From positions 111,493 through 175,492 of the forward strand of contig NZ_WHOL01000077.1 in the NCBI RefSeq assembly GCF_009745975.1: a stretch of DNA of 64,000 nt. The letters are read 5' to 3'. This stretch comes from Actinokineospora pegani (GTDB lineage: Bacteria; Actinomycetota; Actinomycetes; Mycobacteriales; Pseudonocardiaceae). Within the stretch, counting starts at the first letter, position 1. Every line of letters starts with the position of its first letter. Under the pieces are notes generated by a model, which saw only the letters and a list, made by a program, of their open reading frames with translations, was not told the DNA's origin and searched no databases. This document shows positions 3,446-21,724 of this stretch, piece by piece. Made by a program: the position numbers and the translations under genes.

Positions 3446-3473
3446 TGCGCTCCTCGGGGCCGGGGGCGGGGCG

Positions 3474-4109
3474 TCACTGGGTGCCGGTGAACACGGCCAC
3501 ACCGGCCAGGGCGATCAGCACGCCGCCGCCGACGTAGCGCTGGGCCTGCAGGAAGCCCCTGCTGCGCTGGGCGCGGCTGCGCAGCAGCAGGCTGAGCGCG
3601 GCCCACGCGCCGTTGGTCAGCACGCCGACCACGACGAAGACCAGGCCGAGCACCAGCGTGGTCGACCAGACCGGCGCCTGGTCGCTGTTGACGAACGCGG
3701 GCAGGAACGCGAGGAAGAACAGCGTGCTCTTGGGGTTGAGCGCGTTCACGACCAACCCGTCGAGGAAGATCCGCCCCCCGGAGGCCTGCGCCACCTGCCC
3801 CTGCTCGGACTCGAGGGGCATGATCGGCGTCATCAGCCTGCGGACGCCCAACCACACCAGGTAGGCCGCGCCCGCGTACTTGACCACCTCGAAGGCCACC
3901 TCGTTGGCCGCCACCAGCGCCGACAGGCCGACCGTGGCGGCCAGGACCTGCACGGTGTCGCCCGCCGCGAGGCCCAGCGTGGACATGGCGCCGCCACGGG
4001 CGCCCAGGTCGAGCGTGCGGCTGCTGACGTAGAGCACCGAGGGCCCCGGGACCAGCAGCAGCACCAGTGACGCGGCCAGGAAGACCCAGATCGTCGTCAG
4101 GTCGGGCAT
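3474..4109 (-). CDS. LysE/RhtB family amino-acid exporter
   Basis: This is a 211-residue hydrophobic protein with about six predicted membrane segments. The family signature VPGPSVLYV lies near residue 20, followed by a GLAAGD motif near 48 and [16 protein letters not shown] near 124, all typical of LysE/RhtB transporters that export amino acids or small amphipathic metabolites. It lies 165 bases downstream of the thioesterase gene that ends the biosynthetic operon and 28 bases upstream of the aminotransferase. It could therefore be the exporter for the cluster product or simply an amino-acid efflux pump; the sequence does not decide. Confidence 0.9.
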
Positions 4110-4274
4110 CCGTCGTGCTCCTCAGACTGTGCGGCAGGCCCCACCCGCCGCGGGGGAGCCCTCGGACACCCCCGGTCCGAGCCACGACGGAGTGTAGTGG
4201 TGCGCCCGCGCCCGCGCGGCTGGTTCCGGCCACCGGCTCGACTTCGCCGCCGCCGAGCCGCCCGGCGGACCGGC

Positions 4275-5033
4275 TCACGGGAGCACGACCTCCCGACCCG
4301 CCCGCAGCGCGGCGCCGAGGTGCCCGAGCAGCGCCTCCCGCTCGGAGTGCAGGAACAGGTGGCCGCCGTCGAGCCGGTGGTGGGTGAACCGGCCCGTGGT
4401 CTGCGCACCCCAGGCCTCGACGTTCGCGGGGGCGACATGCGGGTCGGTCCGGCCGCTGAAGGCGGTGACCGGGCAGTCCAGCGGCGGCTGCGGCCGGTGC
4501 CGGTAGGTGTCGTTGACCCGGAAGTCCGCCCGCAGCCCGGGCGCGAGCAGCGACATCGTGCGCGGGTCGGCCAGCACCTCCTCCGGGGTGCCGCCGAAGT
4601 CCCGCAGCGCGTCGGCGAACTCGGCGTCCGGCAGGTCGTGGATGAGCGGGCGGGTCACCGGCAGTTGCGGCGCCTGCCTGCCGGAGGCGAACAGGTGCTC
4701 GGGCCCGCGGCGACCCGCCGCCCGCAGCAGCCGGGTGAACTCGAACGCCACCAACGCGCCCATGCTGTGCCCGAACAGCGCGAACGGCTCGGCGCAGTAG
4801 TCCTCGGTGACCTCCGCCAGCGCCGCCACCGCGGCGTCCACGTCCTGGAACGGCTTCTGCAGCAGCCGGGACTCGCGGCCGGGCAGCCGCACCGCGCACA
4901 CCTCGACGTCGGCGGGCAGCGCGTCGGCCCAGCCCGCGAACGCCGACGCGCCGCCCCCGGCGTAGGGCACGCACAGCAGCCGCAGCCGCGCGCCGGGCAC
5001 CGGCCGGGTGCGGACCAGCCAGCTCGCGTTCAC
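4275..5033 (-). CDS. Type II (discrete) thioesterase of polyketide/peptide assembly line
   Basis: The 252-residue alpha/beta hydrolase begins with the type II thioesterase pattern LLCVPYAGGGASAF at residues 19-32. It has the nucleophile elbow GHSMG (Ser90), an aspartate in SGRTDPHV, and a late GGHLFL histidine, so the catalytic triad looks complete. Such enzymes remove stalled or wrongly loaded acyl groups from carrier proteins, and some release products. The GTG start at 5033 overlaps the FkbH-like stop codon in a GTGA, showing translational coupling. It is the last gene of the minus-strand operon. Because the polyketide synthase has no thioesterase domain of its own, this enzyme may also take part in chain release. 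Confidence 0.93.
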   Translation of the reverse strand: MNASWLVRTRPVPGARLRLLCVPYAGGGASAFAGWADALPADVEVCAVRLPGRESRLLQKPFQDVDAAVAALAEVTEDYCAEPFALFGHSMGALVAFEFTRLLRAAGRRGPEHLFASGRQAPQLPVTRPLIHDLPDAEFADALRDFGGTPEEVLADPRTMSLLAPGLRADFRVNDTYRHRPQPPLDCPVTAFSGRTDPHVAPANVEAWGAQTTGRFTHHRLDGGHLFLHSEREALLGHLGAALRAGREVVLP

Positions 5034-6082
5034 CTCGGCTCGCCGCGGACGTCGACCACCAGGTGCCCCGGCAGCGGTGGGATGTCGGACAGGTCGTTCT
5101 CCAGCCGCACCAGTTCGCCCTCCCGGGAGATCTCGGAGAACCCGGCGAACCGGTAGGTCACCAGCATCATCCGGTTGCGGCCGTTGGGCAGGAACTCGGC
5201 GAGCAGCCGCACCCCGGCCTCGCGCGCCAGCCGCCGCAGGTGGGTGATGAGCACCCCGCCGACCCCGCGCGACATGACCCGGCAGGACATCAGCAGCAGC
5301 CGGATCAGCCACGCGTCGGCGCCCCGCTCGATCAGCACCAGGCCGATCGTCCCGTACGGACCGTGCCGGTCGGTCAACCGCGCCACCAGCAGCAGGTGGT
5401 CCGGGGACGTGCGGTAGCCGTCCAGCTCCTCGTAGGAGTAGGTGTAGCCGGTGGTGTTGAGCTGGTTCGTGCGGACGGTCAGCTCCTCCGCGCGCTTGAG
5501 GTCGTCCTCACCCGCGGGCGCGATGGTGAACGTCATGCCCAGCGTGGCCAGGAACTCGTCCTGCGGGCCGGTGAACTCCTGCTCGATCCGGGCGCGCTCC
5601 TCGTCGGCGCGGTACATCGCGCGCCGGTGCGCGGAGTCGTCGGTGATGAACCGGGGCGTGAACTCCGGGCGCTCGGCGAGGGAGGCGGCCTCGGCGGCGT
5701 CGATCCGCAGCACCTCGGGCACCTCGTAGCCGACCTCGTCGCGCTCGAAGGCGTCGTCGTCGACGAAGGCGAACGAGTCCAGGCCGAGGTTGAGCGCGGT
5801 GGCGATGGCGCGCACCGACGACGACTTCGCGTTCCAGTTGATCTGCGGGTAGAGGAAGTAGTCGAGCAGGCCGTGCTCGCGCAGCGCGGCGACGGCGGTG
5901 TCGTGGTCGTTGCGGCTGGCCACGGACTGCAGGATGCCGCGCCGGTCCAGCTCGGCGACGACCTCGACGATCCCGGGTCGCAGCGTGACCCGCTCGTCCT
6001 CCAGCAGCACCCCGTCCCACACCGTGTTGTCCAGGTCCCAGACCACGACCTTCACGGTCCGGACGGCGGTCTCCTCGGTCAT
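5030..6082 (-). CDS. FkbH-like HAD-family protein loading a C3 unit on carrier protein
   Basis: The product has 350 residues. The HAD motif WDLDNTVW gives Asp16 and Asp18. The N-terminal HAD-like part is followed by a C-terminal GNAT-like acyltransferase part, with a long conserved stretch around TNQLNTTG near residue 210. FkbH proteins take 1,3-bisphosphoglycerate, dephosphorylate it and attach the glyceryl group to a discrete carrier protein, the first step towards hydroxymalonyl- and methoxymalonyl-ACP. The ATG at 6082 overlaps the upstream dehydrogenase stop codon (ATGA). Direct neighbours are FkbI-, FkbJ- and FkbK-like genes, which supports that pathway rather than tetronate formation. 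Confidence 0.92.
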   Translation of the reverse strand: MTEETAVRTVKVVVWDLDNTVWDGVLLEDERVTLRPGIVEVVAELDRRGILQSVASRNDHDTAVAALREHGLLDYFLYPQINWNAKSSSVRAIATALNLGLDSFAFVDDDAFERDEVGYEVPEVLRIDAAEAASLAERPEFTPRFITDDSAHRRAMYRADEERARIEQEFTGPQDEFLATLGMTFTIAPAGEDDLKRAEELTVRTNQLNTTGYTYSYEELDGYRTSPDHLLLVARLTDRHGPYGTIGLVLIERGADAWLIRLLLMSCRVMSRGVGGVLITHLRRLAREAGVRLLAEFLPNGRNRMMLVTYRFAGFSEISREGELVRLENDLSDIPPLPGHLVVDVRGEPR

Positions 6083-7251
6083 GCCCCTGCCCCCTTGCCC
6101 GCGGCGGCCATGGCCCTGGCCTGGTAAGCGGTGTCCGCGATCGTGGTCTGCTGCAACTCGGTCGCGCCCTCGATGATCTCCATGACCTTGGCGTCGCGCA
6201 GGTAGCGCTGCACCGGGTGGTCCCCGGCGCAGCCCTGGGCGCCGTGCGCCTGGACGGCGTCGGCGGCGGCCTTGAACGCGCTGGTGCTGGCGAAGTACTT
6301 GGCCATCCAGGTCGCGTGCACGCCCTGCTGGTCGCCCGCCTCCCGCAGCAGGCCCGCCTGCTGGCACAGCAGCCGCGCGGCGCTGGCCGCGGTGGCCATG
6401 TCGGCGATCATCCGCTGCACCAGTTGGTGATCGCGCAGCCGCGCCCCGAAGGTCTCCCGGTTCTCGGCGTGCGCCAGGGTGGCGTCCAGGCACGCCTGGA
6501 GCAGCCCGACGCACCCCCAGGCCACGGTGTAGCGGCCGAGCTCGAGCGCGTCGGCGGCGACGGCGACCAGCCCGAAGCCGGGCCTGCCCAGCAGCGCCGC
6601 CCCGGGCACCCGGCACTCGACCAGGCTCAGCTCGCCGAGCATGGACGCGCGGGTGCCGAGGACGGACTCCACCGGGCGCACGGTGAGCCCGGCGCTGTCG
6701 GCGGGCACCAGGAACGCCGTCTCCCGGTCGTCGAGGCGGGCGAACAACAGGAACAGATCGGCGCGCTGCCCGAACGTCGTCCACCGCTTCTCGCCGGTGA
6801 GCACGAACCCGTCGCCGTCGCGGCGCGCGGTGGCGGCCAGGGCCTTGACGTCGCTGCCCGCGCCCGGCTCGCTCAGCGCGAACGCCCCGATGGTGGCGCC
6901 GCGGGCCAGCCGGGGCAGCCAGTGCTCGCGCTGCCCGGTGCTGCCCCAGCGGGCCACGGCGCGGGACACCATGCCGTGCACCGTGATCAGGCTGCGCACC
7001 GACGAGCAGGCCCGGCCGGTCTCCTCGCAGAGCAGGCCGAGTGTGGTCTCGTCCAGGCCCGCGCCGCCGTGCTCGGTGGGGATCGCGCCGCCGAGGTGTC
7101 CGCGCTCGGCGAACTCGGTGATGAACTCCTCCGGCAGCGCCGACTCGCGGTCCCACTCGTCGGCGAACGGCGCGATCCTGGTGCGGGCGAACTCCTCGAA
7201 CCCCCGCCGCGCGGCGTCCTGCGCGGCGGTCAGCCCCACTCGGGTCGCCAT
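6079..7251 (-). CDS. FkbI-like acyl-CoA dehydrogenase family oxidase (glyceryl-ACP pathway)
   Basis: This is a full-length acyl-CoA dehydrogenase family flavoprotein of 390 residues. Its N-terminal helical domain carries PTEHGGAGLD near residue 58, the central beta domain carries ALSEPGAGSD near 125 and GEKRWTTFG near 153, and a C-terminal helical domain follows. Its place between a carrier protein and an FkbH-like gene points to the FkbI role, oxidising the glyceryl-derived unit on its carrier protein towards hydroxymalonyl-ACP. The stop overlaps the FkbH-like start by four bases, and the carrier-protein stop is one base upstream. Members of this family also oxidise other acyl- or aminoacyl-carrier proteins; neighbourhood, not motifs, assigns the substrate. 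Confidence 0.9.
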   Translation of the reverse strand: MATRVGLTAAQDAARRGFEEFARTRIAPFADEWDRESALPEEFITEFAERGHLGGAIPTEHGGAGLDETTLGLLCEETGRACSSVRSLITVHGMVSRAVARWGSTGQREHWLPRLARGATIGAFALSEPGAGSDVKALAATARRDGDGFVLTGEKRWTTFGQRADLFLLFARLDDRETAFLVPADSAGLTVRPVESVLGTRASMLGELSLVECRVPGAALLGRPGFGLVAVAADALELGRYTVAWGCVGLLQACLDATLAHAENRETFGARLRDHQLVQRMIADMATAASAARLLCQQAGLLREAGDQQGVHATWMAKYFASTSAFKAAADAVQAHGAQGCAGDHPVQRYLRDAKVMEIIEGATELQQTTIADTAYQARAMAAAGKGAGA

Positions 7252-7252
7252 G

Positions 7253-7504
7253 TCAGGTTGCCGCCTGCACGCTGCTCTTGCGGCGCACCAGCGCGTCGAT
7301 GGCCGAGATCGAGGCGAAGTTGGCCCGCTCCAGGTCCTCGTCGTCCACCGCGGCGCCGAGCTGGTTCTCCACGAACAGCACGAGCTGCATGACGAACAGC
7401 GAGTTGACCAGCCCGATGGCGAAGAAGTCGTCCTCGTCGCCGAGCGTGTCCGTGGCGAAGAACTGGGTGAGGAAGGCGCGGATGGCGGGCTTGTGATCGG
7501 TCAC
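7253..7504 (-). CDS. Discrete acyl carrier protein, FkbJ-like
   Basis: This 83-residue acidic carrier protein has the phosphopantetheine serine in the motif GLVNSLFVMQLV (near residue 35). The N-S-L/I form is typical of the carrier proteins of the methoxymalonyl/hydroxymalonyl pathway. The GTG at 7504 is preceded by AAAGGAG at good spacing. It lies between the FkbK-like and FkbI-like genes. It should hold the glyceryl unit that is oxidised to hydroxymalonyl and then offered to the polyketide synthase. It needs a phosphopantetheinyl transferase, which is not in the window. Confidence 0.93.
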   Translation of the reverse strand: MTDHKPAIRAFLTQFFATDTLGDEDDFFAIGLVNSLFVMQLVLFVENQLGAAVDDEDLERANFASISAIDALVRRKSSVQAAT

Positions 7505-7524
7505 CGGGGACTCCTTTCGTGGGG

Positions 7525-8397
7525 TCAGGCGAGGGTGCTGGCGTAGTCGAAGAAGCCCTTGCCGCTCTTGCGGCCGAGGTGCCCGGCGTCGACCATCCGG
7601 GTCAGCAGCGGGCAGGGTCGGTACTTGCTGTCGCCGAAGGCCTCGTAGAGCCCCTGGACCGATTGCAGGATCGTGTCGAGGCCGATGAGGTCGGCGGTGG
7701 CGAGCGGGCCCATCGGGTGCCCGAAGCACTCCCGGAAGATCTCGTCCACCTGCGCGGGGGTGGCGACGCCCTCGTGCAGGAGGAAGACCGCCTCGTTGAC
7801 GGTGAGCATCAGCACCCGGTTGGACACGAACCCGGGGGAGTCGGCGACCACGACCGACCGCTTCCCCATCTGCCCCAGCAGCCGGTTCGCGGTGTCGACG
7901 GTGGCCTGGGAGGTGTGGTGGCCGCGGATGACCTCGACGACCGGTTTCATCGGGACCGGGTTCATGAAGTGCATGCCGAGCACCCGGTCCGGCCGGGTGG
8001 TGGCCGCCCCGACCCGGGTGATCGGGATGACCGAGGTGTTCACCGCGAACACGGTGCGCGGGGCGCAGCGCGCGTCGAGGACCTCGTAGACGGGCCGCTT
8101 GACGGCCCAGTCCTCGGTCACGTTCTCGATGACGAAGTCGGCCGCCTCGATGCCCTCGTAGGTCGTGGTGCACGAGATCCGCTTGAGCACCAGCTCCCGG
8201 TCCTCGGTGGGCGCCGGGCCGCCGAGCATCCTGGCCAGCCGCAGGTTCTGCCGCACGGCGTCGACCGCCTCGCCGAGGATGTCCTCGGTGCGGTCGACCA
8301 GCACGACCTCGTGCCCGCTCTGCGCCAGCGACTGCGCCAGGCCCGTGCCCATCACGCCCGCGCCGATCACGCCCACGGTTCGGATGCTGTCCACCAT
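7525..8397 (-). CDS. FkbK-like 3-hydroxyacyl-CoA dehydrogenase family protein
   Basis: The NAD-binding GAGVMG motif begins at residue 12 of this 290-residue dehydrogenase. MHFMNPVPMKP and DSPGFVSNRVL follow in the middle, and a C-terminal GRKSGKGFFDY closes it, all classic for 3-hydroxybutyryl-CoA dehydrogenase relatives. In methoxymalonyl-type clusters the FkbK homologue oxidises the hydroxyl of the glyceryl unit. I used the ATG at 8397. A GTG at 8418 in the same frame would overlap the polyketide synthase stop as GTGA and is a real alternative. No O-methyltransferase (FkbG) is present anywhere nearby, so the expected extender is hydroxymalonyl-ACP, not methoxymalonyl-ACP. Confidence 0.9.
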   Translation of the reverse strand: MVDSIRTVGVIGAGVMGTGLAQSLAQSGHEVVLVDRTEDILGEAVDAVRQNLRLARMLGGPAPTEDRELVLKRISCTTTYEGIEAADFVIENVTEDWAVKRPVYEVLDARCAPRTVFAVNTSVIPITRVGAATTRPDRVLGMHFMNPVPMKPVVEVIRGHHTSQATVDTANRLLGQMGKRSVVVADSPGFVSNRVLMLTVNEAVFLLHEGVATPAQVDEIFRECFGHPMGPLATADLIGLDTILQSVQGLYEAFGDSKYRPCPLLTRMVDAGHLGRKSGKGFFDYASTLA

Positions 8398-8414
8398 CTG
8401 CTCCTGTCCGTCCG

Positions 8415-11400
8415 TCACGACCCCACCGCCGTGGGCTGGGGTGAAAGCCTGGGGCGCAGCGCGTCGGCCAGGCCGCGCACGGTCAGCGCCTCGAAGAGGG
8501 CGGTCAGCGCCAGGTCGACCCCGAAGTGCCTGCGCACCCCGGCGACGACCTGCAGACCGAGCAGCGAGTGCCCGCCCAGCTCGAAGAAGTCGTCGACCAC
8601 CCCGACCCGGTCCAGGCCGAGCAGCTCGGCCCACTGCGCCGCCAGCACCCGCTCGAGGTCGTCGGCGGGCTCGGTGTAGTCACCCGCGGCCGTGGGCCTG
8701 GGGTGGGCTGCGGCTTGCGGGGCCGCCGCGCCGGGGCGCTGCCCGGCGATGTCGGCGATCACCGCGTCGAGGTCCTTGGCGACCACGGCGACGTTCGGGC
8801 CCAGGTCGGCGCCCAGCACCCGGCGCAGCGCCTCGACGCCCTCGGCGGGTCGGATGCCCTCCCGCAGGTGCGCGCGCAGCGCGTTGTCCGCCTCGCCGCG
8901 CGGGAACCGGTACCCGGCGACCTCGGCCGAGGTGCCGTCGCGCAGCGCGGTGAGCCGGTCGGCGAGGTCGTCGACCTTCTTGAGGACGAAACCCTCCACG
9001 GTGGCGACCACCGCGCCGTGCTCGTCGAGCAGCGTGATGTCGGAGACCAGCGTCTGCTTGCCCGGCCGGTCCGCCTCGCGGAAGCGGTGGTGGCTGACCA
9101 TCCGCGCGGGCAGCGGCGCGAACAGGGTGAGCCTGCCGTAGGACAGCGGGATGCGGAACTCCTCGGCGAAGTTCATGCCGTGGAAGCCCGCCGCCAGGTC
9201 CAGCAGCGACGGGTGCAGCCGGATCAGGTCCAGGTCGCCCGCGAACGCGGCGGGCAGCTCCAGCTCGGCGACCGCGGTCCTCGGCCCGAGGTGCACGCGG
9301 CGCAGGCAGTCCGAGCGCGGTCCGAACCCCATCGGCCCGGTGTGCGTCACCGGTCCGCTGTCGCGCAGGCCCTCGACCAGCGCGGCCAGGTCACGCGTCC
9401 CCGGCGCGCCGTCGGGAGCCCGCTCGACGGCGCCGGTGACGTGCACGTGCCAGTCCTCGGTGTCGGCGCCCACCGCCCGGCTGACGACGTGGAACCGCCG
9501 TCCGGCGCCCGCGGGTTCCAGCACCACGCGCAGGTCGCGCCCGTCGTCGTCGCCGACGACGACGGGGGAGAGGAACGTGACCTCGCGCAGTGCGATGCCG
9601 ACCCCGGTGCCGCCGCTGTGGTGCTCGTACGCGGCGCGCACCAGCTCCAGGTGCCCGGTGCCCGGCACGACCGCGTGCCCGACCATCCGGTGCTCGTCGA
9701 TCAGCCAGGAGCCCGCGACGCTCAGCCGCGCCGAGTAGACGGCCAGACCCGGCCGGTCGACCAGGCACGCGTCCAGCAGCGGGTGCGCCACCGGGCCCTC
9801 CCGGCCGCCGCCGATCATCCGCGCGGCCATGCCCACCGACTGCCAGCCGTCCCAGTCGACCGCGACGACGCGGGGGTCGCCGTCGGCCGCGGCGCGGGCG
9901 GCGATCGCGCCGAGCACCGCGTTGGCGGCGACGTAGTCGACCTGGCCGACGCCGCCGGTGATGGCCAGGGTCGACGAGCAGTGCACGGTGAAGTCCGGCC
10001 GCAGCCGCCGGGACAGCGCGTCGACCACCAGCCCGCCGCGCACCTTGGGCGCGAGCACCCGCAGGGCCTCGGCCGGGTCCTTGAGCTGCGCCAGACCCGC
10101 CGCCGGGACACCCGCGGCGTGCACGATGCCGTGCACCGCGCCGAAGCGCGCCACCGCCTCGTCGGCGATCTCGGCCATCCGGTCGGCGTCGGCGACGTCG
10201 CCCGCGGCCACCACCACCTCCGCGCCCAGCTCGGTCAGCTCGCGCACCGCCGGGTGGCCCGGGTCGGCCGTGCGGCCGACGAGCACCAGCCTCGCCGCGT
10301 GGTCGGCGGCCAGCGCCCTGGACAGCTCCAGGCCGACGCCGCCGAAACCGCCGGTGATCAGGTAGACGCCGCCGTGGCGCAGCGGGGGAGTGGACCCCGG
10401 TACCCGCACCGAGCGGTGCCCGCGCCGCCAGCGCCGCCCTCCGCGCACAGCGGTGACGGTCTCGACGCCGGGGTTGAGCAACTCCGACAGCAGCCGCTCG
10501 GCCGCCGCCTCGGGGGCCGCGGCGGGGTCGAGGTCCACCGAACGGCAGGTCGTGTCGAGTTGTTCCAGCGGCAGCACCAGGCACGGCCCGGCCGCCACCG
10601 CCTGCTCGGGCGCGAGCCGCTCGGTGCCGAGCACGGCGTGCGCGCCGGTGGTGACGACGGTCAGGTCGAGCGGACCACCGGCCGCCGCGGCGTTGAACAG
10701 CAGCAGGCTGACGAAACCGCGGTCCAGGAACGCGTCCAGGGCGTCGAGGTCGGTCGGCGGGCCGACGTTCCACAGGTGCACGACCCGGTCCGGGGTCCCC
10801 GCGGCGGCGAGCAGCGCGCGGTGGTGCGCCGGGTCGGTCGGGTCGACCTCGTAGGCCGCCGGGCCGACCTCCCGCCAGTCGGCGCCGGCGCGGGCCGTCG
10901 TCACGGTGTGGCCCGCGGCGATCAACGTGTCGGCGAGCGCGGTGCCGACGCCGTGTTCGTCGACGAACAGCAGCCACGACCGGGGTTCGCCGCTCGGGAC
11001 GGTGGCGTGCGGGGCCAGCGGCTCCCACACCGGCACGTTGAACCACTCGGCGATGTCGTCCTTGCGGTCCAGCGAGGGCGCGGACCTGCCCGCCCGGGCG
11101 GGAGCCGGGTCGATCCAGTATCTCTTGCCCTCGAACGGATACGTGGGCAGCGTGGTTCGCGGGGTGTCGCCGCCGCCGCGCAGCGCGGCCCAGTCCAGGT
11201 CGACGCCCTCGGCCCACAGCCTGCCCGCGGTGGTCAGGAGGAAGGCTTGCTCGCTGCGCGCGTCGTACTCGCCGGGCAGCGAGGACACCGCGCGCAGGCC
11301 GGGGGCGGCCCCCCGTGGCCGGGCGAGCAGGGCCAGGCTGCTCAGCGTCTGCCCCGGCCCCACCTCCAGCAGCAGGTGCTCGGCGCCAGCCCACAGGCGC

Positions 11401-13790: not shown

Positions 13791-15682
13791 GACCGGCCGT
13801 CCTCTCTCGCGTCCGCGCGCAGTCGGCGACCGCGCAGCACGCGGTCGCGGTCCCGGCCGCGCGGGGCGGCGACGGGGGCGGTGTCGGTGCCCGCGAGGTG
13901 CTCGGCGAGCGTGGCCACCGTCGGGCACATGGTCAGCGTCACGACCGGCACGTCGTGGCCGAGCTCGACGCGCAGCAACTCACGCATCCTGGTGAGCAGC
14001 AGCGAGTTGCCGCCGAGGTCGAAGAAGTTCTCGTCCTCGCCGATCCGGTCGCGGCCGAGCACCCGGCACCACAGCCCGGCGATCCGCCGCCGCACCGGGT
14101 CCCCGATCTCGGCGGCAGGCGCGCCCTGCTCGGCGGCCACCCGCTCGGCGATCTGCTCGGCCAGCGCCAGCCTGCGCACCTTGCCGGTGGGGCTGCGCGG
14201 CACGTCGTCGACGCGGAACACCCGGCTCGGCACCTTGTGGTCGGCCAGCCGCTCGGCCACGTGCGCGCGGATGTCGCGCTCGACGACCACGGCGCCCTCC
14301 CGCGCGACGACGGCCACGGCGACGTCCTCGCCGAGCGTCGGGTGCGGCAGGCCGAAGGCGACGGCCAGCTTGACCGCCGGGTGGTCGGCGAGCGCGTCGT
14401 CCACCTCGACCGGGGCGACCTTCATCCCGCCCCGGTTGATGATCTCCTTGCTGCGCCCCACGATGTGCAGGTGGCCGTCGGCGTCGAGGCGGCCCTCGTC
14501 GCCGGTGCGCAGCCACCCGTCCGCGGTGAACGCGGCCAGGTTCGCCTCGGGGTTGTCCTCGTACCCGGCCGTGACGTTCCCGCCGCGGATGGCGATCTCA
14601 CCGGACTCACCCGTCGGGACGCGCTCCCCGGCCCGGTCGAGGATGATCACCGGCTCGCCGACGGGCACCCCGACCGAGCCGGGCTTGCGCAGACCGGGCG
14701 GCAGCGGGTTCGCGGTGACCAGCGACCCCGCCTCGGTCATGCCGTACGCCTCGATGACCGGCGCGCCGAAGGTCTGCTCCAGCGCGCCGAGCAGCGCGAG
14801 CGACAGCGGCGCCGAGGCGGAGCGGATGAACCGCAGCCCACCGCCCGCCAGCAGGTCGGCGTGCCCGGCCGCGGCGCTGACCAGTGCCTGGTGCATGGCC
14901 GGGACCGCGCTGTACCAGGTGGGGCGGAAGTCCCGGTACCAGTCGAAGAACCCGGTGTCGGAGAAGCCGGGCGCGCAGACGATCCCGCCGCCGCCGAGCA
15001 GCACGGCGATCAGCGTGCTGGTCAGCCCGTGCGCGTGGAACAGCGGCATCATGTTCAGGCACAGGTCGTGCTCCCCGATGGCGAACCAGGCGCGGGTGTT
15101 GCCCGCGGCCGTGCGCAGCCCGGCGTGGGTGTGTGGCACCAGCTTCGGGCGCGAGGTGGTACCCGAGGTGTGCAGGATCAGCGCGGTGTCGTCGTCCCCG
15201 GCCGGACCGCGGCGCGCCTGGTCGAGGTCGCCGGGGTCGCCGCGCAGGTCGAAGTGCCCGGCCGGGGCCGAGTCGTCGGAGACCAGTTCCAGCACGCGCA
15301 CCCCCCGCGACCGGGCCACGGCCACGGCGGGGGAGTCCGAGCCGGCGGGCACCAGCAGCGCGTCGGCGCGCATGTCGGCGAGGTAGAAGGCGAACTCCCG
15401 CTCGCGGTAGGCGGGGTTGAGCGGCGCGGCGGTGGCGTGCGCGGCGACGCCGGTGAACGCCACCGCCAGGTCCGGGCCGTTGGGCAGCACGATGGCGACC
15501 CGGTGCCCGCGGCCGATCCCGAACCCGTTGAGGGCGCGGCCGATCTCGGCGACCCGCCGGTCGAGACCGAGGTAGTCCAGCGGTGCGCGGCCGGGGGCGA
15601 GCACCGCCGACGCGGTGGGCCGGACCTCGGCGTGCAGGCGGACCGCGCCCGCGAGGCCTGGCGTCAGGTCTGTCGGTGTCAC
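13787..15682 (-). CDS. Acyl-AMP ligase fused to a carrier protein (loading didomain)
   Basis: This 631-residue protein begins with an adenylate-forming ligase: LHTSGTTSRPK (P-loop-like), AYGMTEAG, LRTGDEG, INRGGMKVAP and SPTGKVRR, all intact. A carrier domain (about 530-600) follows, with GGNSLLL holding the phosphopantetheine serine. The sequence is closer to fatty-acid/acyl-CoA synthetases than to amino-acid adenylation domains, so a carboxylic acid substrate is likely. It sits directly before the polyketide synthase with a GTGA overlap, so it probably activates and presents the starter unit or an intermediate. A low-complexity Arg-rich tail of about 25 residues ends the protein. GTG start at 15682, overlapping the DapB-like stop. 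Confidence 0.92.
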   Translation of the reverse strand: MTPTDLTPGLAGAVRLHAEVRPTASAVLAPGRAPLDYLGLDRRVAEIGRALNGFGIGRGHRVAIVLPNGPDLAVAFTGVAAHATAAPLNPAYREREFAFYLADMRADALLVPAGSDSPAVAVARSRGVRVLELVSDDSAPAGHFDLRGDPGDLDQARRGPAGDDDTALILHTSGTTSRPKLVPHTHAGLRTAAGNTRAWFAIGEHDLCLNMMPLFHAHGLTSTLIAVLLGGGGIVCAPGFSDTGFFDWYRDFRPTWYSAVPAMHQALVSAAAGHADLLAGGGLRFIRSASAPLSLALLGALEQTFGAPVIEAYGMTEAGSLVTANPLPPGLRKPGSVGVPVGEPVIILDRAGERVPTGESGEIAIRGGNVTAGYEDNPEANLAAFTADGWLRTGDEGRLDADGHLHIVGRSKEIINRGGMKVAPVEVDDALADHPAVKLAVAFGLPHPTLGEDVAVAVVAREGAVVVERDIRAHVAERLADHKVPSRVFRVDDVPRSPTGKVRRLALAEQIAERVAAEQGAPAAEIGDPVRRRIAGLWCRVLGRDRIGEDENFFDLGGNSLLLTRMRELLRVELGHDVPVVTLTMCPTVATLAEHLAGTDTAPVAAPRGRDRDRVLRGRRLRADAREDGRS

Positions 15683-16401
15683 CCGGGTTCAGTCCCTTCC
15701 ATGACGTCTTCGAGGGTGTGCAGGCCGGGTGGCGCGGCGGCGGCGAAGCGGACGGCCAGCAGGACGCCCGGCAGGAACGCCCGGCGGTCGGCGACGCGGT
15801 GCAGCACCTCGACGTGCTCGCCGGGGCCCGCGGCGAGCACCCGGTGCTCGCTCACCGCGTCGCCGAGGCGGAACGACGCCGTCTCCGGCGCGGTGGCCGT
15901 CCCACGCGGCCGGCCCCACTGCTCGGCGAGCATCCCGGCGGTGCCGCTCGGCCGGTCGCGCTTGCCCGCGAAGTGCACGTCGAGCACGCCCGCGTCCCAC
16001 TCCGGGCCGGTCGAGGCGGCCAGTTCGCGGACGAACCGGGCCACCGACAGCAGGGCGAGGCTGAAATTGGCCGCCGCGACCACGGCCCGCCGCCGCGCCA
16101 CCTCGGCGAGCAGCGCGCGCTCGTCGGCGTCGAGGCCGCTGGTGCCGAGCACGAGCGGGCACCCGGTGCCGGGCAGCGCCGCCAGCAGCGCGGCGGTGGC
16201 CCCGGCGCCGGTGAAGTCGACGATCACGGGCGCGCGTCCGGCGACCGGGGACAGGTCGACGGCGGTCTCGCCGTCGGCGCGGCGGGTGCTGAGCCTGCCC
16301 AGCGCATCGAACCCCGGCGTGGTCTGCACGGCGTCGGCGACGAGGTCGGACATCCGGCCCCGCACGCCGCAGACGGCCACCGGCACGGTCGGCGCGGTCA
16401 C
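15679..16401 (-). CDS. DapB-like (4-hydroxy-tetrahydrodipicolinate reductase family) reductase, diverged
   Basis: The product of 240 residues matches DapB length in actinobacteria. Visible family features are the N-terminal nucleotide-binding CGVRGRMS, VLGTSGL, ANFSLAL, and GKRDRPSGTA. Compared with bona fide DapB, the usual paired histidines before the conserved lysine read as H-F, and the last glycine of the nucleotide-binding loop is serine. This suggests a specialised reductase acting in this cluster rather than lysine biosynthesis. Flanking genes overlap by four bases on both sides, so it belongs to the operon. A role reducing a cyclic imine or enamine intermediate is inference from DapB chemistry. 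Confidence 0.85.
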   Translation of the reverse strand: MTAPTVPVAVCGVRGRMSDLVADAVQTTPGFDALGRLSTRRADGETAVDLSPVAGRAPVIVDFTGAGATAALLAALPGTGCPLVLGTSGLDADERALLAEVARRRAVVAAANFSLALLSVARFVRELAASTGPEWDAGVLDVHFAGKRDRPSGTAGMLAEQWGRPRGTATAPETASFRLGDAVSEHRVLAAGPGEHVEVLHRVADRRAFLPGVLLAVRFAAAAPPGLHTLEDVMEGTEPG

Positions 16402-17264
16402 CGGTACGCCCCGCCGGTGACCAGGCCCATCCGCCTGGCCAGTTCGGCCTCGACCATCCGCCTGCCGCCGAAGTGCGCCAGCACCGCGCGGCCGGGCCAG
16501 CCGGGCCGGGTGACCGGGGTGTCGGCGAGCCCGAGGTCGGCCGTCATGTCCTCGGCGACCACGACGGTCCGGTGCAGCAGGTCGGTGCACGCCAGCAGCA
16601 CCGCGGCCACCGCCTGACCGCCGGTCGCCTCGGCGCGGGACCCGGCGCCGTGCTCGGCGGCGAGCCCGGCCAGGTTCACCTCGATCTCGAGCTTGCTCAG
16701 CTCGTGCGCCAAGTACTGCGACGTGCTCAGCGCCCGCACACCCGCCCCGGTGACGGCCAGCGTGCGGCGCAGGTCCGCGATCACCCCGGCGCACCAGCGG
16801 GCGCCGAACGCGGCGAACCGCCAGGCGTGGTCGGCCAGCGCGGCCCGCACCGGACCCGCCTCGGTCAGCGACACCGGCTCGGACAGCGCGTCCCCGCGCA
16901 GCACGGCGCCGACCGCCGCACCCACCCCGCCGTCGACCCGCACACCCGCGGCGTCGCTCGGCAGCAGCGCCAGCCGGACCCCGCCGTCGAGGGCGACGGC
17001 CACCAGCGCCACCTCCGCACCGGGCGCGGTGAGCTGGAAGCCGCCGTCGAGCACGACATCCGCGCCGTCGCGGATGCCCTGCAAGGGGTTCTGCGACAAG
17101 GAGAACAGCGCGTTCGGCCGGAACAACCCCACCGCGGCGGAGGTGGCGCCCGAGCGGACCCGGCCCACCAGCTCGTCCTCGGCGAACAGCGCGAGCAGCG
17201 GGTGGATCGTGTGCTCGGCCTCCAGGTCGGCCGCGACCTCGGTGAACGACCGGCCGGCGGTCAC
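16398..17264 (-). CDS. Shortened acyl-CoA dehydrogenase-like protein
   Basis: This 288-residue protein resembles the middle beta domain and C-terminal helical domain of acyl-CoA dehydrogenases. Near residue 70-105 it has a VLDGGFQL...ALLPSDAAGV pattern, and near 195 it has TSQYLAHELSKLEIEV, a typical helix of the C-terminal domain. The N-terminal helical domain of normal members (about 110 residues) is mostly missing, and none of the usual flavin-binding SEP/TEPxAGSD segment is visible. It may be a regulatory or partner subunit for one of the two full-length dehydrogenases in the operon, or a non-redox enzyme. GTG start at 17264, with GTGA overlaps at both ends. Confidence 0.7.
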   Translation of the reverse strand: MTAGRSFTEVAADLEAEHTIHPLLALFAEDELVGRVRSGATSAAVGLFRPNALFSLSQNPLQGIRDGADVVLDGGFQLTAPGAEVALVAVALDGGVRLALLPSDAAGVRVDGGVGAAVGAVLRGDALSEPVSLTEAGPVRAALADHAWRFAAFGARWCAGVIADLRRTLAVTGAGVRALSTSQYLAHELSKLEIEVNLAGLAAEHGAGSRAEATGGQAVAAVLLACTDLLHRTVVVAEDMTADLGLADTPVTRPGWPGRAVLAHFGGRRMVEAELARRMGLVTGGAYR

Positions 17265-17542
17265 CGCCCGCCCCCGACGAACTCGGCGATCGAGTCGACC
17301 GTCGCCAGGTGCTGCGGGTCGGCCTCCGGGTCGATCGCCACGCCGTAGCGCGCCTCCAGCGCCTCCAGCAGGTTGATGTAGCCGATGGAGTTCACCCCGG
17401 CCGCGTCCAGCGCGCCGCCTGCCGCCCGCAGGTCGGCCACGGTGACGACCCGGCCGGTGGCGACCTCGATCAGCCGCTCGATCTCCGCCCGCCGGTCGGT
17501 CGCCCCGACCGGGGCGACGGCCCCGACTGCCTCGTTGCTCAC
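17261..17542 (-). CDS. Discrete acyl/peptidyl carrier protein
   Basis: This 93-residue protein has the carrier-protein fold pattern. The phosphopantetheine serine is in GVNSIGYINLLEALE, near residue 52, followed by a typical TVDSIAEFV helix at the end. The GTG at 17542 has AGGAG about ten bases upstream. It lies one base downstream of an AMP ligase gene and next to dehydrogenase genes. This matches the ligase/carrier/dehydrogenase trio used in other clusters to activate an amino acid or acid and oxidise it on the carrier. It is distinct from the FkbJ-like carrier at 7253-7504. Confidence 0.9.
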   Translation of the reverse strand: MSNEAVGAVAPVGATDRRAEIERLIEVATGRVVTVADLRAAGGALDAAGVNSIGYINLLEALEARYGVAIDPEADPQHLATVDSIAEFVGGGR

Positions 17543-17543
17543 G

Positions 17544-19007
17544 TCAGCTGCTCCTGTCGCTCTCGGTCGTGCCGACCAGGGCCCGCAGCTCCGCCATCCG
17601 GACCTTGCCGGTGGTCGAGCGCGGGACGGCGGCCAGGTACGACACCCGGCCGGGGACCTTGTAGGCGGCGAGCCCGGCGCGGCAGTGCCGGATCACCTCG
17701 TCGCGGCTCGGCGGCCGCGGCCCGCCGAGCACGGCGTGCAGCACCGCCTCCCCGTTGGCGTCGGCGTCGGCGAACACCACCGCCTCGGCGACGCCGTCGA
17801 GCACCCGCAGCACCTGCTCGACCTCGACCGGGTCGACCTTGCGGCCCGCCAGGTTGATCGGACCGCCGAGGCGGCCGGTGACGAACAGCCGCCCGTCCTC
17901 GACCCGTCCCCGGTCGCCGGTCCGGTAGTACCCGTCCGCGTCGACCCGCTCGGCGAGCAGGTCGGGGGCGTTGAGGTAGCCGCTGGACATGGACTCGGTG
18001 CGCACCCGGACCTCGTGCTCCCCGGTGGGCAGCTCCACGATCCGCAGCGACACCCCGGGCAGCGCCGTGCCCAGGCCCTCGCCGCGGTCGGCGTCGCGCT
18101 CGTAGGTGCACGGGCCCGCCTCGGCGATGCCGTAGTAGTCGGCGATCGGGACGCCGTAGACCCGCTCGAAGTCGGCGCGGACGCCCGGCGCCAGCACCGA
18201 GGCGGCCGACACGGCCCTGCTCAGCGTGGCGAACGGGGCCACGTCCGGCGCGGGCGCCTCGCCGAGCACCCGGTAGGCCAGCGGGAAGGCGACCAACCGG
18301 GTGGGGCGGGCCGCGGCCACGGCGCGGGTGATCCCCCGCGACGACGGGAGACCGCGGTAGAGGTGCAGTTCGCCACCGACGAGCAGCACCGGCAGCAGGG
18401 AGGTGTTGAAAGCCAAGCCGTTGCTGAACGACGCCAGGCACAGCACCCGGTCGTCCGCGCCCAGCCCGGTCCCGGCGACCCAGTTGCGGGCCGCGGCGAG
18501 CACCGCCCGGCCGGAGAACTCCAGGCACTTCGGCTCGCCGGTGGTGCCGGAGGTGAACCGGCAGGTCGCCGTGTCCGGCCGGGGACGCGGCGCGGTGGCG
18601 GGCGGGTCGTCGAGAGCGGCGATCGACAGCGCGCTGTCGGCCACCGGGCGGATCTCGGCGGGGAGCGGGAACTTCGCGGGCGCGGCGGTCAGGAAGTCGC
18701 CGACCCCGCACCCACTCGCGATCGCGGCCAGCTCCACGGCCCCGAACTTCGCGTCCACGAGCATCGGCAGCCTGCCGGACCGGATCAGCGCGTAGTAGGA
18801 GACCAGGTACTCCAGGCTGTTGTCGGCGTGGATGCCGACCCGGCGGCGGTCCGGGCCGAGCACCGCGTCGAGCTCCGCGGCGCGCGACCGGACCCGCTCG
18901 GACAGCTCGGTGTAGCTGACCCGGTCGGCGCCGTCGACGACGGCGGTCCGCCCGGCGTGCTCGGCGCAGGCGGCCGCGAGCACCTCGGCCAGGTCGACCT
19001 CAGCCAC
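17544..19007 (-). CDS. Stand-alone acyl/aminoacyl-AMP ligase
   Basis: A 487-residue adenylate-forming enzyme with FTSGTTGEPKCLEF, YYGIAEAGP, YRTGDRG, NLAGRKVDP and the late lysine in STTGKVRM. All core motifs are present, so it should be active. The partner carrier protein is the next gene downstream, and a full-length dehydrogenase is the next gene upstream (8-base overlap). The arrangement is like that of enzymes that activate proline or similar amino acids for oxidation on a carrier protein, but the specificity pocket cannot be read reliably by eye. The GTG at 19007 is the only start consistent with the neighbours. Confidence 0.9.
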   Translation of the reverse strand: MAEVDLAEVLAAACAEHAGRTAVVDGADRVSYTELSERVRSRAAELDAVLGPDRRRVGIHADNSLEYLVSYYALIRSGRLPMLVDAKFGAVELAAIASGCGVGDFLTAAPAKFPLPAEIRPVADSALSIAALDDPPATAPRPRPDTATCRFTSGTTGEPKCLEFSGRAVLAAARNWVAGTGLGADDRVLCLASFSNGLAFNTSLLPVLLVGGELHLYRGLPSSRGITRAVAAARPTRLVAFPLAYRVLGEAPAPDVAPFATLSRAVSAASVLAPGVRADFERVYGVPIADYYGIAEAGPCTYERDADRGEGLGTALPGVSLRIVELPTGEHEVRVRTESMSSGYLNAPDLLAERVDADGYYRTGDRGRVEDGRLFVTGRLGGPINLAGRKVDPVEVEQVLRVLDGVAEAVVFADADANGEAVLHAVLGGPRPPSRDEVIRHCRAGLAAYKVPGRVSYLAAVPRSTTGKVRMAELRALVGTTESDRSS

Positions 19008-20187
19008 GGCCGACCCCGCTCGGCGCCACCGGCGCGGCGGGCTGGGCCAGCTCGGCCCGGCAGGCCAGGCTGTGGTTGGCGATGGTCAGCATGGTGGTCT
19101 GGCTGCCGCCGGACATCCGGAACCCGCGGGCCTGCGCGTGCGCGGCCAGCGAGGCGCTGCCCCACATGTAGCCCGCGCCGCCCTCCAGGTCGGTGCACAG
19201 CGCGGCCAGCTCAGTGGCCTTCTCCACGCAGAACCACTTCAACTCCGCGACCTCCGGCACGCTGCTGCCGCCCTCGGTCAGCCGCAGGTAGCCGTCGACG
19301 ACCCCGGCCGCCATCAGCTCCTGGTCGGCCCTGGCCCTGGCCAGCGCGTGCGCGTTGACCGGCCACGCGGCCAGCGGCCTGCCGCCCAGCTCGCGGCCGC
19401 CGGTGTGCCCGACGATGTGGTCGAGCAGCCGCCGGTGCAGCTGCCAGGCGTCCGCGGCGATCAGGAACCGCATCCGCGACATCACCCGGTTCCAGCGCAT
19501 GAGCTGGCTGACCCCGCCGCGCGAGACGACCTGGTCGCGCGGGACCCGGGCGCCCTCGAAGGACACCGTGGCCGAGTCGATCGCGCGGGTGCCGAGCTTG
19601 TCGTGCACCTCCACCACCTCGACCCCGGGGGTGTCCTTGCCCACCAGCACGATCGCGGGCGCGCCGTCGAGCTGCGCGCTGACGAAGCACAGGTCGGCGT
19701 TGGCGCCGTTCACGACGTACTTCTTGCGCCCGGTGACCACGACGGAGTCGCCGTCGGTCGTGGCGGTCGTGGGCTCGGCGGCGGACGGGTCGGTGTCGCA
19801 CTGGCAGGCCACCGACTCACCCGAGACCACCGCGGGCAGGTGGCGGGCGCGCAGGCCCGGATCGGCCGCCGAGACCAGCCAGTCGGCGGCGATCTCGGTC
19901 TGCACGTGCAGACCCAGGGCCAGGCCGCCGTCGCCGACCCCGGCCACGGCCTCGCCGAGGACGAGCGCGCCGAGCAGGCCGAGGCCCTGGCCGCCGTGCT
20001 CGCGCGGCAGCGACACCCCGAGCAGCCCGTGCTCGGCCATGTCCCGCCACAGCTCCTTGCGCACGTGCCCGCCGGGGGTGGTGCGCCAGCGGTCGAGCAG
20101 GTCGGGGGTGAAGTACGCGGACGCGCGGGTGGCGAGCGCGCGGTGCTCGTCGGTCAGGCGTGCGGACAGGACGGTGTTGCTCAGCAT
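19000..20187 (-). CDS. Acyl-CoA dehydrogenase family flavoprotein
   Basis: This 395-residue full-length dehydrogenase has LPREHGGQGLG near residue 59, CQCDTDPSAAEP in place of the usual T-E-P-xx-G-S-D flavin loop, GRKKYVVNGANAD near 152, and a complete C-terminal helical domain ending in FRMSGGSQTTMLTIANH. The altered flavin loop suggests adaptation to an unusual substrate, probably an acyl or aminoacyl group on the adjacent carrier protein. The ATG at 20187 lies about 34 bases after the SagB-type gene. Only a weak ribosome-binding sequence is visible, so the start is moderately certain. Confidence 0.9.
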   Translation of the reverse strand: MLSNTVLSARLTDEHRALATRASAYFTPDLLDRWRTTPGGHVRKELWRDMAEHGLLGVSLPREHGGQGLGLLGALVLGEAVAGVGDGGLALGLHVQTEIAADWLVSAADPGLRARHLPAVVSGESVACQCDTDPSAAEPTTATTDGDSVVVTGRKKYVVNGANADLCFVSAQLDGAPAIVLVGKDTPGVEVVEVHDKLGTRAIDSATVSFEGARVPRDQVVSRGGVSQLMRWNRVMSRMRFLIAADAWQLHRRLLDHIVGHTGGRELGGRPLAAWPVNAHALARARADQELMAAGVVDGYLRLTEGGSSVPEVAELKWFCVEKATELAALCTDLEGGAGYMWGSASLAAHAQARGFRMSGGSQTTMLTIANHSLACRAELAQPAAPVAPSGVGRG

Positions 20188-20221
20188 GGACTGGTCACCA
20201 CTCTCCGGGTGGGCACCCGGC

Positions 20222-21724
20222 TCAGGAGTCGATGCGGGAGGCGAGGCCGTGGCTGTGCGCGACCGGGGCGCGGTCCCACTTGACCGCGCTCTCGTCGGCG
20301 ACGCCCGCGGCGAGGACGTAGAGCACCTCCTCGGCGGGCTCCAGCCGCACCAGGTCGGCGACCAGGTGCTCGTCGAAGCCGCCCAGGCAGGTGATGCCCA
20401 GGCCGTGCGCGGTGGCGCCGAGGCACAGCCGCTGGGCCGCGGCCGCGGCGTGGAAGTGCAGTTCCGCCAGCCCCTGCGTGCCGTGCTCGGCGAGCACCCG
20501 GCGGACCGGGGCGTGCAGCGCGATGACCACCGCGGCCGAGCGCACCACGTCCTGGCGCATACAGGCCGTGATGACCTCCTCGCTCGTCCCGGCGTCGCCG
20601 CCGAGCGGGCGCAGGCCGTGCTCGTCGGGCAGGTAGGCGTAGGCGCCAGGCGAGGTGCCCGACACCTCGCGCAGCAGCAGCCGCACGCCGACGGCGACAC
20701 CGTCGGCGCAGTCCACCGGGGTCGTGGCCCGCAGCGCCGCCAGCGCCCGGCCGAGTTCGTCGGCGGGACTGGCTGAGGGCAGGAACCCCTTGGCCGACTT
20801 GCGACGCAGCACCGTCGACCGCAGCGGGGCGGTCCCGAGCGGGTCCGGCACGGCCAGCGGCACGCCCGGTTCGCCACCCGCCGTCGCGACCACCGAGCGC
20901 ATCGACCCGAGGACCGGCTTGGACCGGGGCCCCGCGTGGTAGGTGCTGATGGAGTCGATGCTGTGCCAGCCCGCGCGCTCCTCGTCGTCGGTCGGCTCCA
21001 GACCGCCCTCCTGGTCGTCGCGCCAGACCGGTACGGCGAACGGGTTGGCGGCGCGGTCCGGCCCACCGGTCGGCTCGGCCGACCCGTGCAGCGTGATCAG
21101 CGTCTGCGGCTCGCGCCCCACCGGGTCGATCCCGAGCACCCCGGCCGCCGCGGTGCGGTCGAACCGCAGGTGCACCCTGGTGTCGAAGCCCGCGTCCTCG
21201 GCCACGACGGCGATGTTGTTCGCCACGTGACCGCCGTCGAGGTGGGTGTAGAGGTAGCCCCGCCTGCCGTACTTGCGCATGGACAGCCACGGCCTGCCGA
21301 CGACGACCACCACCGCGGACGGCTGCTCCTGGACCTCGGGCAGGAGCGCGTTCAGCGCACCTCCGGCGATCGGCCGCAAGTAGCGCAGACAGCAGCCCGC
21401 GACGTCGTAGTGGTGCAGCTCGTACCCGTCGGGTCCGCCCAGCGCGACCAGCACCTCAACCGGGTACAGCGCCCCGGCCGACGGGGTGGTGCGGGCCCGG
21501 ATCAGCGATCGGCCTTTGGTGATCGAGGTGCCCGAACGTTCGCCGTAGCCGACGCAGAGCACCTCCGACACCGCCGCCCAGGAGCGGGCGAACAGGCCGC
21601 GCCGCGTCGACGTCGCCACCGGGGCGGCGATGGCGGTGGCGGCCCGCAGCCTGGTCTCGTCCCAGAACCTGGTCAAGGTGGGGTTGGCCTGCTCGTCGAC
21701 GTCCACGCCCCACGGCAGGTTCAC
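20222..21724 (-). CDS. SagB-type flavin dehydrogenase with tandem nitroreductase domains
   Basis: This 500-residue protein has two nitroreductase-fold FMN domains in a row. The first (about 50-270) contains RTTPSAGALYPVEV and a YLYTHLDGGHVANNI segment. The second (about 300-500) starts with a LRRKSAKGFLP motif and contains HAAAAAQRLCLGATAHGLG. This is the SagB/ThcOx group, which dehydrogenates azolines in RiPPs and also oxidises carrier-bound residues in assembly lines (for example the oxidase domain of indigoidine synthetases). No RiPP cyclodehydratase is nearby, so a carrier-bound substrate is more likely. I chose the GTG at 21724. An ATG at 21880 would pull in AT-rich DNA with unlikely coding content. 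It is the first gene of the operon. Confidence 0.85.
   Translation of the reverse strand: MNLPWGVDVDEQANPTLTRFWDETRLRAATAIAAPVATSTRRGLFARSWAAVSEVLCVGYGERSGTSITKGRSLIRARTTPSAGALYPVEVLVALGGPDGYELHHYDVAGCCLRYLRPIAGGALNALLPEVQEQPSAVVVVVGRPWLSMRKYGRRGYLYTHLDGGHVANNIAVVAEDAGFDTRVHLRFDRTAAAGVLGIDPVGREPQTLITLHGSAEPTGGPDRAANPFAVPVWRDDQEGGLEPTDDEERAGWHSIDSISTYHAGPRSKPVLGSMRSVVATAGGEPGVPLAVPDPLGTAPLRSTVLRRKSAKGFLPSASPADELGRALAALRATTPVDCADGVAVGVRLLLREVSGTSPGAYAYLPDEHGLRPLGGDAGTSEEVITACMRQDVVRSAAVVIALHAPVRRVLAEHGTQGLAELHFHAAAAAQRLCLGATAHGLGITCLGGFDEHLVADLVRLEPAEEVLYVLAAGVADESAVKWDRAPVAHSHGLASRIDS

Follow-up and report, generated by a model that had tools for sequence, protein, structure and literature searches.

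What is made by a thirteen-gene operon that lies on the minus strand, between positions 21724 and 4275, of a 64,000-nucleotide stretch of the genome of Actinokineospora pegani (contig NZ_WHOL01000077.1; the whole stretch analysed is called the window here) is the question that this locus raises. The best explanation that can be offered is that the operon is a cassette for 2-aza-L-tyrosine (azatyrosine, 3-(5-hydroxypyridin-2-yl)-L-alanine), a reading to which we would give a probability of roughly 0.55. The broader statement, that its product is azatyrosine or a very close analogue, is the more probable one, judging from the genomic context and from a comparison with kedarcidin made via paulomycin, and the order of assembly is less certain than the identity of the product. 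In the open-licence literature, subscription journals being outside that search, no account of azatyrosine biosynthesis or its genes was found, and the same literature yielded nothing joining hydroxymalonyl and oxalyl units with a polyketide, and no description of this operon.

The operon and its distribution

The genes, numbered g01 to g13 from position 21724 downwards, tile the region according to the open reading frame listing and a frame analysis based on GC content at third codon positions and, given the starts chosen, neighbouring genes overlap by 4-8 bp or stand 1-34 bp apart at all twelve junctions. A preliminary description of this DNA, made from the letters alone, had already seen a one-strand run of thirteen touching or overlapping genes here, which is thus borne out. 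Its list of parts also stands, through matches to Pfam, NCBIfam and the PDB and, for the third protein related to acyl-coenzyme A (CoA) dehydrogenases (ACADs), through profile alignment. Matters of observation are the genes, their order and conservation, the intactness of their catalytic motifs, and the existence of two genomic settings, described below.

The run begins with g01 (20222-21724), a two-domain SagB-type flavin oxidoreductase with two Nitroreductase domains (TIGR03605, 109.2 bits, cut-off 78.4), which shows 42-53% identity across the eight other operons discussed below. The adjoining g02 (19000-20187) has the ACAD domains of Pfam and the corresponding fold, the usual C-terminal catalytic glutamate being absent and the EG motif replaced by (S/A)GGS in all nine copies. 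It is followed by a free-standing AMP ligase (g03, 17544-19007; Pfam AMP-binding) and by a free-standing carrier protein (g04, 17261-17542; Pfam PP-binding), in which the serine of GVNSI is kept in 9/9. The divergent g05 (16398-17264) gave no match in the Pfam search; hhalign relates it to the g02 family (E=8.6e-7), with glutaryl-CoA dehydrogenase as its best PDB match (E=3e-4), and g02 and g05 may be partners in a mixed enzyme. A DapB-like NAD(P)H reductase is encoded by g06 (15679-16401), with DapB_N and DapB_C over the Pfam cut-offs, 106.9 bits against the NCBIfam dapB profile (under its cut-off of 122), up to 84 bits against DapB proteins of the PDB, and the motif H...K.DxPSxTA kept in every one of the nine copies. 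The second AMP ligase, g07 (13787-15682), is fused to a carrier protein and is oxalate-CoA-ligase-like by PDB comparison, oxalate/oxalyl-CoA ligases scoring 386, 362 and 320 bits against 193 bits for the best other enzyme, a 4-coumarate ligase.

The centre of the second half is g08 (8415-13790), a single polyketide synthase (PKS) module in which Pfam places, in that order, ketosynthase (KS), acyltransferase (AT), ketoreductase (KR), dehydratase (DH) and acyl carrier protein (ACP) domains. The KS C-H-H, AT GYS(I/L)G, KR tyrosine, DH histidine and aspartate and ACP serine are intact in every copy covering them, and Pfam matched neither an enoylreductase nor a reductive release domain. Next come the four genes of a hydroxymalonyl set: a 3-hydroxyacyl-CoA dehydrogenase (g09, 7525-8418; PRK05808, 323.5 bits, under its cut-off of 408), a carrier protein (g10, 7253-7504; PRK07081, E=2.7e-9; serine of NSL kept in 9/9), an acyl-CoA dehydrogenase (g11, 6079-7251; NCBIfam ACADs up to 255 bits, under their cut-offs) which retains the catalytic glutamate as an EG motif in all nine copies, and an FkbH-type glyceryl loading enzyme (g12, 5030-6082; TIGR01686, 263.9 bits, cut-off 146.7). 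The last gene, g13 (4275-5033), would encode a thioesterase-like alpha/beta hydrolase, judging from weak matches to that fold and a GHSMG motif read from the sequence, and it is present in the eight other operons, truncated by the contig end in Actinomadura logoneensis.

In the window the unit is longer than these thirteen genes, and to that degree the extent first described falls short. A LysE/RhtB-type amino-acid exporter (g14, 3474-4109; TIGR00949, 112.4 bits, under its cut-off of 184) and an aminotransferase, probably of the aromatic type (g15, 2441-3502), follow on the same strand and are conserved in some relatives; a scan of positions 1100-5000 for terminators and promoters found nothing. 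The profile exceeded by g15 (PRK03321, 476.9 bits) is filed by NCBIfam as 'histidinol-phosphate transaminase', and the best PDB match is the 'putative phenylalanine aminotransferase' 4r2n, with 315.5 bits against 143.5 for histidinol-phosphate enzymes. Elsewhere in its genome A. pegani has another copy of this gene, 55% identical to g15.

Gene-by-gene comparison finds the thirteen genes in identical order, with small insertions in some cases, in eight other genomes, a recurrence in other actinomycetes that the preliminary description had proposed to look for. The operon is therefore not a chance grouping. At least five genera carry it, as Streptomyces, Kitasatospora, Micromonospora, Actinomadura and another member of the window's family (genome G837) are represented. 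A scan of genome contigs with g02 gave seven of these loci at 63-75% identity (S. fragilis, S. uncialis, three Kitasatospora, M. chaiyaphumensis and A. logoneensis); an eighth, from a Hyphomicrobiaceae genome (L020, 25% identity), was unrelated and was excluded. Searching 397 genomes of the window's order with g05 returned two matches, the window's own and that of M. chaiyaphumensis (G098; L018), where all thirteen genes stand in order at 42-68% identity. Within the window's family 390 genomes were searched, which brought in the operon of G837; of the 20 genomes matched there, 18 had hits (E 9.8e-8 to 9.4e-6) that were taken, unread, as ordinary acyl-CoA dehydrogenases and are uncounted. In a draw of 392 Streptomyces genomes centred on S. 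fragilis, g01 exceeds 36% identity in that species alone, so that the operon is rare and patchy in its distribution. A plasmid home was considered and rejected, as no plasmid record matches g02 at 60% or more (26-31% in the fifteen best matches), and no relative turned up among the viral contigs scanned.

In two Kitasatospora a phosphopantetheinyl-transferase-like gene lies between g06 and g07, and in Kitasatospora sp. MAA19 a reading frame on the opposite strand separates g11 from g12; in A. logoneensis a contig break falls within g08, and the contig that carries the rest of the operon ends in g13. Phosphopantetheinyl-transferase-like genes were seen in or just after the operons of some relatives (L016:14798-15493 by Pfam; 229 amino acids in K. 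aureofaciens and 245 in S. uncialis, both by eye), and the paulomycin cluster, in the portion of its description available to us, also has one, pau38 (PMC4425429). S. uncialis has, on another contig (G399:C10:470790-471815), one more stretch of the FkbH type, with 61% identity to g12.

Two genomic settings and two published relatives

What follows the operon divides the nine loci into two types. In the first, the exporter g14 comes after g13 in six of nine loci, the window included, which amounts to five of the seven others with a readable flank (that of A. logoneensis past g13 is lost, its contig ending there), and g15 also follows in four of the nine, or three of the seven readable others. 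Taking into account that an amino-acid exporter and an aromatic-type aminotransferase adjoin the operon, these genes are signs of an aromatic alpha-amino acid that would be made from an alpha-keto acid and released by the cell.

In the second type, the 40 kb read around the operon of M. chaiyaphumensis and the 80 kb read in G837 showed neither exporter nor aminotransferase, and a tyrosine 2,3-aminomutase (TIGR03832, cut-off 501) is present over the cut-off in three of the nine operon genomes, precisely those in which no exporter was seen. That of G837 (869.5 bits) lies about 5 kb from g01, with nonribosomal peptide synthetase (NRPS) genes between; that of M. chaiyaphumensis (901.8 bits) lies about 8 kb past g13, and that of A. 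logoneensis (881.5 bits) is on another contig than the operon, whereas the six exporter-type genomes give at most 420 bits. Condensation-adenylation NRPS genes adjoin the aminomutase in both G837 and M. chaiyaphumensis. In G837 a tryptophan-halogenase-type gene is located about 3.5 kb past g13, and the contig also encodes a hydroxylase of the HpaB type. The operon contigs of both genomes further bear DUF1702 genes adjoining a KS-AT-KR-DH PKS, a combination that we take to be an enediyne core set, about 30 kb off in M. chaiyaphumensis and 60-70 kb off in G837. The contigs of these two genomes that hold both the operon and the enediyne-type genes (L087-L093 and L094-L096) matched no named compound.

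The three operon-linked aminomutases form one clade (support 0.999) across three genera. They agree at eight positions where 20 other aminomutases are invariant for another residue, and six of the eight are in or beside the motifs TTGYG, NLVRSH, AVQY and SNSDNQ; among all 1771 triples the runner-up has three such positions. These motifs presumably line the active site of the aminomutase, a placement that reportedly comes from work on SgcC4. Our reading is that the operon-linked enzymes would take a substrate other than tyrosine. Self-resistance by a second tyrosyl-tRNA synthetase was also considered and set aside, each of the nine genomes having one match over the family cut-off and four of them a second, sub-cut-off one.

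Kedarcidin, an enediyne, contains 2-aza-3-chloro-beta-tyrosine, and its aminomutase is said to use 2-aza-L-tyrosine. The operon can be compared with its cluster through that of paulomycin. The table in the part of the paulomycin paper available to us sets the oxidoreductase pau33 against AFV52193 (KedU31, 26% identity), the acyl-CoA synthase pau34 against AFV52195 (43%) and the carrier protein pau35 against AFV52196 (KedU34, 24%) (PMC4425429). In paulomycin-like loci of Streptomyces, the counterparts of these three are g01-, g03- and g04-like (31-35%, 40-45% and 29-39% identity where matched). Taken as consecutive, the kedarcidin accessions would place SagB, x, AMP ligase and carrier protein in succession, so that, by way of paulomycin, the order of g01-g04 may be present in kedarcidin too.

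The likeness to paulomycin is wider, since pau33-pau39, as far as that source was available, include an oxidoreductase, an AMP ligase, a carrier protein and a DapB-like reductase (PMC4425429), all of which the operon has. In Streptomyces relatives from paulomycin-like subclusters the ligase is 40-45% identical to g03 where matched, and in eight of them it keeps, in the A4 region, the segment NGLAFNTSLL that is invariant in the nine operon copies, an identity which suggests that operon and paulomycin-like ligases share their first substrate. Paulic acid itself has four carbons and bears its nitrogen on C2. Unlike the operon, the paulomycin cluster also has, in the portion consulted, ThiF, a cysteine desulfurase, an AraD-like protein and a KASIII. 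The sulphur genes of paulic acid (ThiF-like, cysteine desulfurase) are missing from the thirteen operon genes and present, by sequence, at the paulomycin-like locus L060, while no match to g05, g07, g09 or g12 was found in that 20-kb stretch; a ThiF-like gene was seen in two (L060 and L062) of the eight Streptomyces relatives. Further relatives are the Streptomyces subclusters L056-L059, with SagB, ligase, carrier, DapB and ACAD genes, one of which, L058, was read through and showed condensation-like and deacetylase-like neighbours and no ThiF gene.

A proposed route to azatyrosine

One half of the proposed route begins with hydroxymalonyl-ACP, which would be made by g09-g12. The set has FkbH over its cut-off and the ACP and both dehydrogenases adjoining, and it resembles the zwittermicin-type pathway in having FkbH, a carrier protein, two dehydrogenases and no methyltransferase, as no O-methyltransferase was found among the thirteen genes. 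A tetronate or glyceryl-ACP use of g12 was rejected, given that both dehydrogenases of the hydroxymalonyl route are present. In the AT of g08, GYS(I/L)G is found in the nine copies showing that stretch. In the portion of the literature available, GYSFG belongs to the hydroxymalonyl-ACP-specific ZmaA-AT and GYSLG to the aminomalonyl-ACP-specific ZmaF, unlike the GHSxG of the tabulated CoA-specific ATs (PMC4207774). At the YASH position, however, eight copies have HAFH and one has QAFH, where ZmaA has GAAH, and HAFH is that of a malonyl-CoA AT in the same table (PMC4207774). The extender signature thus appears mixed. In contrast to zwittermicin, hydroxymalonyl would here feed a single KR-DH module and probably become an alpha-keto acid.

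The upstream half would supply the aryl group. It is proposed that ligase g03 loads a small amino acid on carrier g04, that the oxidation state of this g04-bound unit is then set by three flavoenzymes (g02/g05 and g01) together with the reductase g06, and that g07 supplies a small C2-type acid. In this way g01-g07 would build a 5-hydroxypicolinyl (hydroxylated pyridine-2-carboxyl) thioester on carrier proteins. Of the eight carbons of azatyrosine, the acid in common with paulic acid could then contribute four, the acid of g07 two and hydroxymalonyl the remaining two.

The aryl thioester would be condensed by g08 with hydroxymalonyl-ACP, and its KR and DH would convert Ar-CO-CH(OH)-CO-S to an arylpyruvoyl thioester in its enol form, Ar-CH=C(OH)-CO-S. 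Since DH follows KR in g08, the extended unit is expected to leave as a 2-hydroxy-enoyl (alpha-keto) thioester and not as a saturated hydroxy acid. It would then be hydrolysed by g13, and the arylpyruvate aminated by g15 or a host enzyme. The finished amino acid would be exported by the LysE-type g14 and, in the enediyne-type relatives, passed instead to the aminomutase and NRPS.

The PKS, release and amination steps follow established domain chemistry, the ring closure being conjectural; more generally, we infer the product, the substrates of g03 and g07, the formation of the ring and the order of the steps. The scheme complete in all its steps is put forward tentatively, at below even odds. 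Equally tentative is its wider implication, that an aromatic alpha-amino acid is assembled on carrier proteins, bypassing the shikimate route: one PKS module would extend an aryl thioester with hydroxymalonyl and, after KR and DH have acted, yield an arylpyruvoyl thioester. Conversion to the matching aryl-alanine would then be open to any aryl acid.

Two other families of pathway share parts with this one. The prolyl/pyrrole carrier-protein pathways (RedW/PltE) also combine an AMP ligase, a carrier protein and an ACAD-type dehydrogenase, but the operon has additional DapB and SagB proteins, and g02 reaches 83.6 bits against a RedW cut-off of 650, on which a pyrrole-type pathway was rejected. 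As regards the SagB systems that make thiazole/oxazole-modified microcins, there is no cyclodehydratase among the thirteen genes, the small reading frames being unscreened for precursor peptides.

Weighing the alternatives

Several observations weigh against azatyrosine as the product. The genome of A. pegani differs from the kedarcidin case in having no aminomutase over the cut-off (best 385.8 bits against 501) and no DUF1702 gene, so that the identity of the product is carried over from relatives. The link to kedarcidin is itself indirect, running through paulomycin on identities of 24-43%. In five of the eight other operons (one of them unreadable) g15 was not seen adjoining. The enediyne-type genes are 30-70 kb distant from the operon, Pfam matched no carrier or phosphopantetheinyl-transferase-like end domain in the DUF1702-linked PKSs, and two genomes of the exporter type, S. 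uncialis and Kitasatospora SolWspMP-SS2h, likewise carry DUF1702, on contigs other than that of the operon. An aminomutase alone says little, because 24 of the 397 genomes of the order have one over the cut-off and only one of them (G098) gave an operon match in the g05 search. With a looser criterion, the operon-linked trio has 12 distinctive positions and comes second to a tight triple of near relatives with 17, and the 20 enzymes used for comparison were the best-scoring of 25 other places over the cut-off in the order, the five weaker ones having been left out. As to the chemistry, no enzyme among the operon genes is clearly assigned to the ring-closing C-C bond, and in the proposed scheme the g07 acid cannot simply be oxalate, because an oxalate unit in the ring would over-oxidise C6. 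Oxalate was for this reason rejected as the certain substrate of g07, whose homology does not fix its specificity.

This last difficulty is where the alternative that survives best, itself unlikely, makes its case. Azatyrosine would still be the product but assembled in another order: a C4 beta-amino-acyl group on g04 would be extended with hydroxymalonyl, the CH=C(OH)-CO formed by the PKS turning into C4-C5(OH)-C6 of the ring, and an oxalyl-ACP from g07 would afterwards acylate the methyl carbon to provide the pyruvyl side chain. Oxalate would be employed as the homology of g07 suggests, the ring hydroxyl would be explained by hydroxymalonyl, and KR and DH would yield the right unsaturation; yet C6 would stay at the acid level, there being no reductive release domain, and nitrogen would sit at the beta position relative to the thioester, not at the alpha position as in the paulomycin unit, which is related and is activated by a ligase with the identical segment.

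A further improbable explanation separates the two halves of the enediyne-type loci, with the aminomutase acting on ordinary tyrosine and the operon making a separate acyl group, or, where it stands alone, a small hydroxy-keto acid or lactone. Aminomutase and operon are indeed apart in most genomes, and the HpaB-type hydroxylase of G837 is of the kind seen in C-1027-type tyrosine tailoring. It would leave unexplained, however, both the eight clade-specific changes of the aminomutases, with their concentration in or beside motifs, and the amino-acid exporter and aromatic-type aminotransferase that adjoin stand-alone operons.

Rather less probable is that the same logic yields some other amino acid with an aromatic or cyclic side chain, such as 5,6-dihydroxypyridyl (pyridone) alanine or a non-aromatic ring analogue. 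The closeness of g07 to oxalate ligases would give just such a 6-oxo ring, and aromatisation by the SagB protein is only putative; but the aza-tyrosine of kedarcidin has chlorine at that carbon, which suggests hydrogen there before chlorination.

Least probable, and quite unlikely, is the flow in which a hydroxymalonyl-containing small polyketide is released without amination of the extended unit: it fits all thirteen core genes and the loci with no adjoining g15 (G837, M. chaiyaphumensis and two of the five Streptomyces/Kitasatospora loci), but not the exporter and aminotransferase that recur beside the operon.

That flow comes from the preliminary description, in which an acid is oxidised on its carrier, a second acid is loaded by the ligase-ACP, and the module extends it before release by the thioesterase. 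As a sequence of events it is compatible with azatyrosine, except that the DH implies an alpha-keto thioester where a saturated hydroxy acid would otherwise be expected. The general idea of a hydroxymalonyl-containing, amino-acid-like product has held up, as have gene content and order, while the specific product is an addition suggested by the exporter/aminotransferase tail, the aminomutase/enediyne setting and the kedarcidin and paulomycin relatives.

Elsewhere in the window, lasso-peptide-type genes occupy 61589-63999 on the minus strand, with an asparagine-synthase-like cyclase (PF00733), whose reading frame apparently shifts near 62464-62693; inspection by eye adds a small protein resembling PqqD and another resembling transglutaminases. 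On the plus strand, 33768-37753 encodes the large and small subunits of a class I ribonucleotide reductase, adjoining a sugar-type ABC transporter and a ROK-family gene.

The operon ties together parts of two published clusters, namely the KedU31-34 region and pau33 with pau36, the latter two being among the genes left unassigned by the paulomycin paper in the portion available (PMC4425429). If the azatyrosine reading is true, it would provide a route to azatyrosine and to the pyridine amino acid of kedarcidin-type enediynes, and hydroxymalonyl units would acquire a new use, the making of an alpha-keto acid. The operon would then be a portable gene set for a tyrosine analogue.

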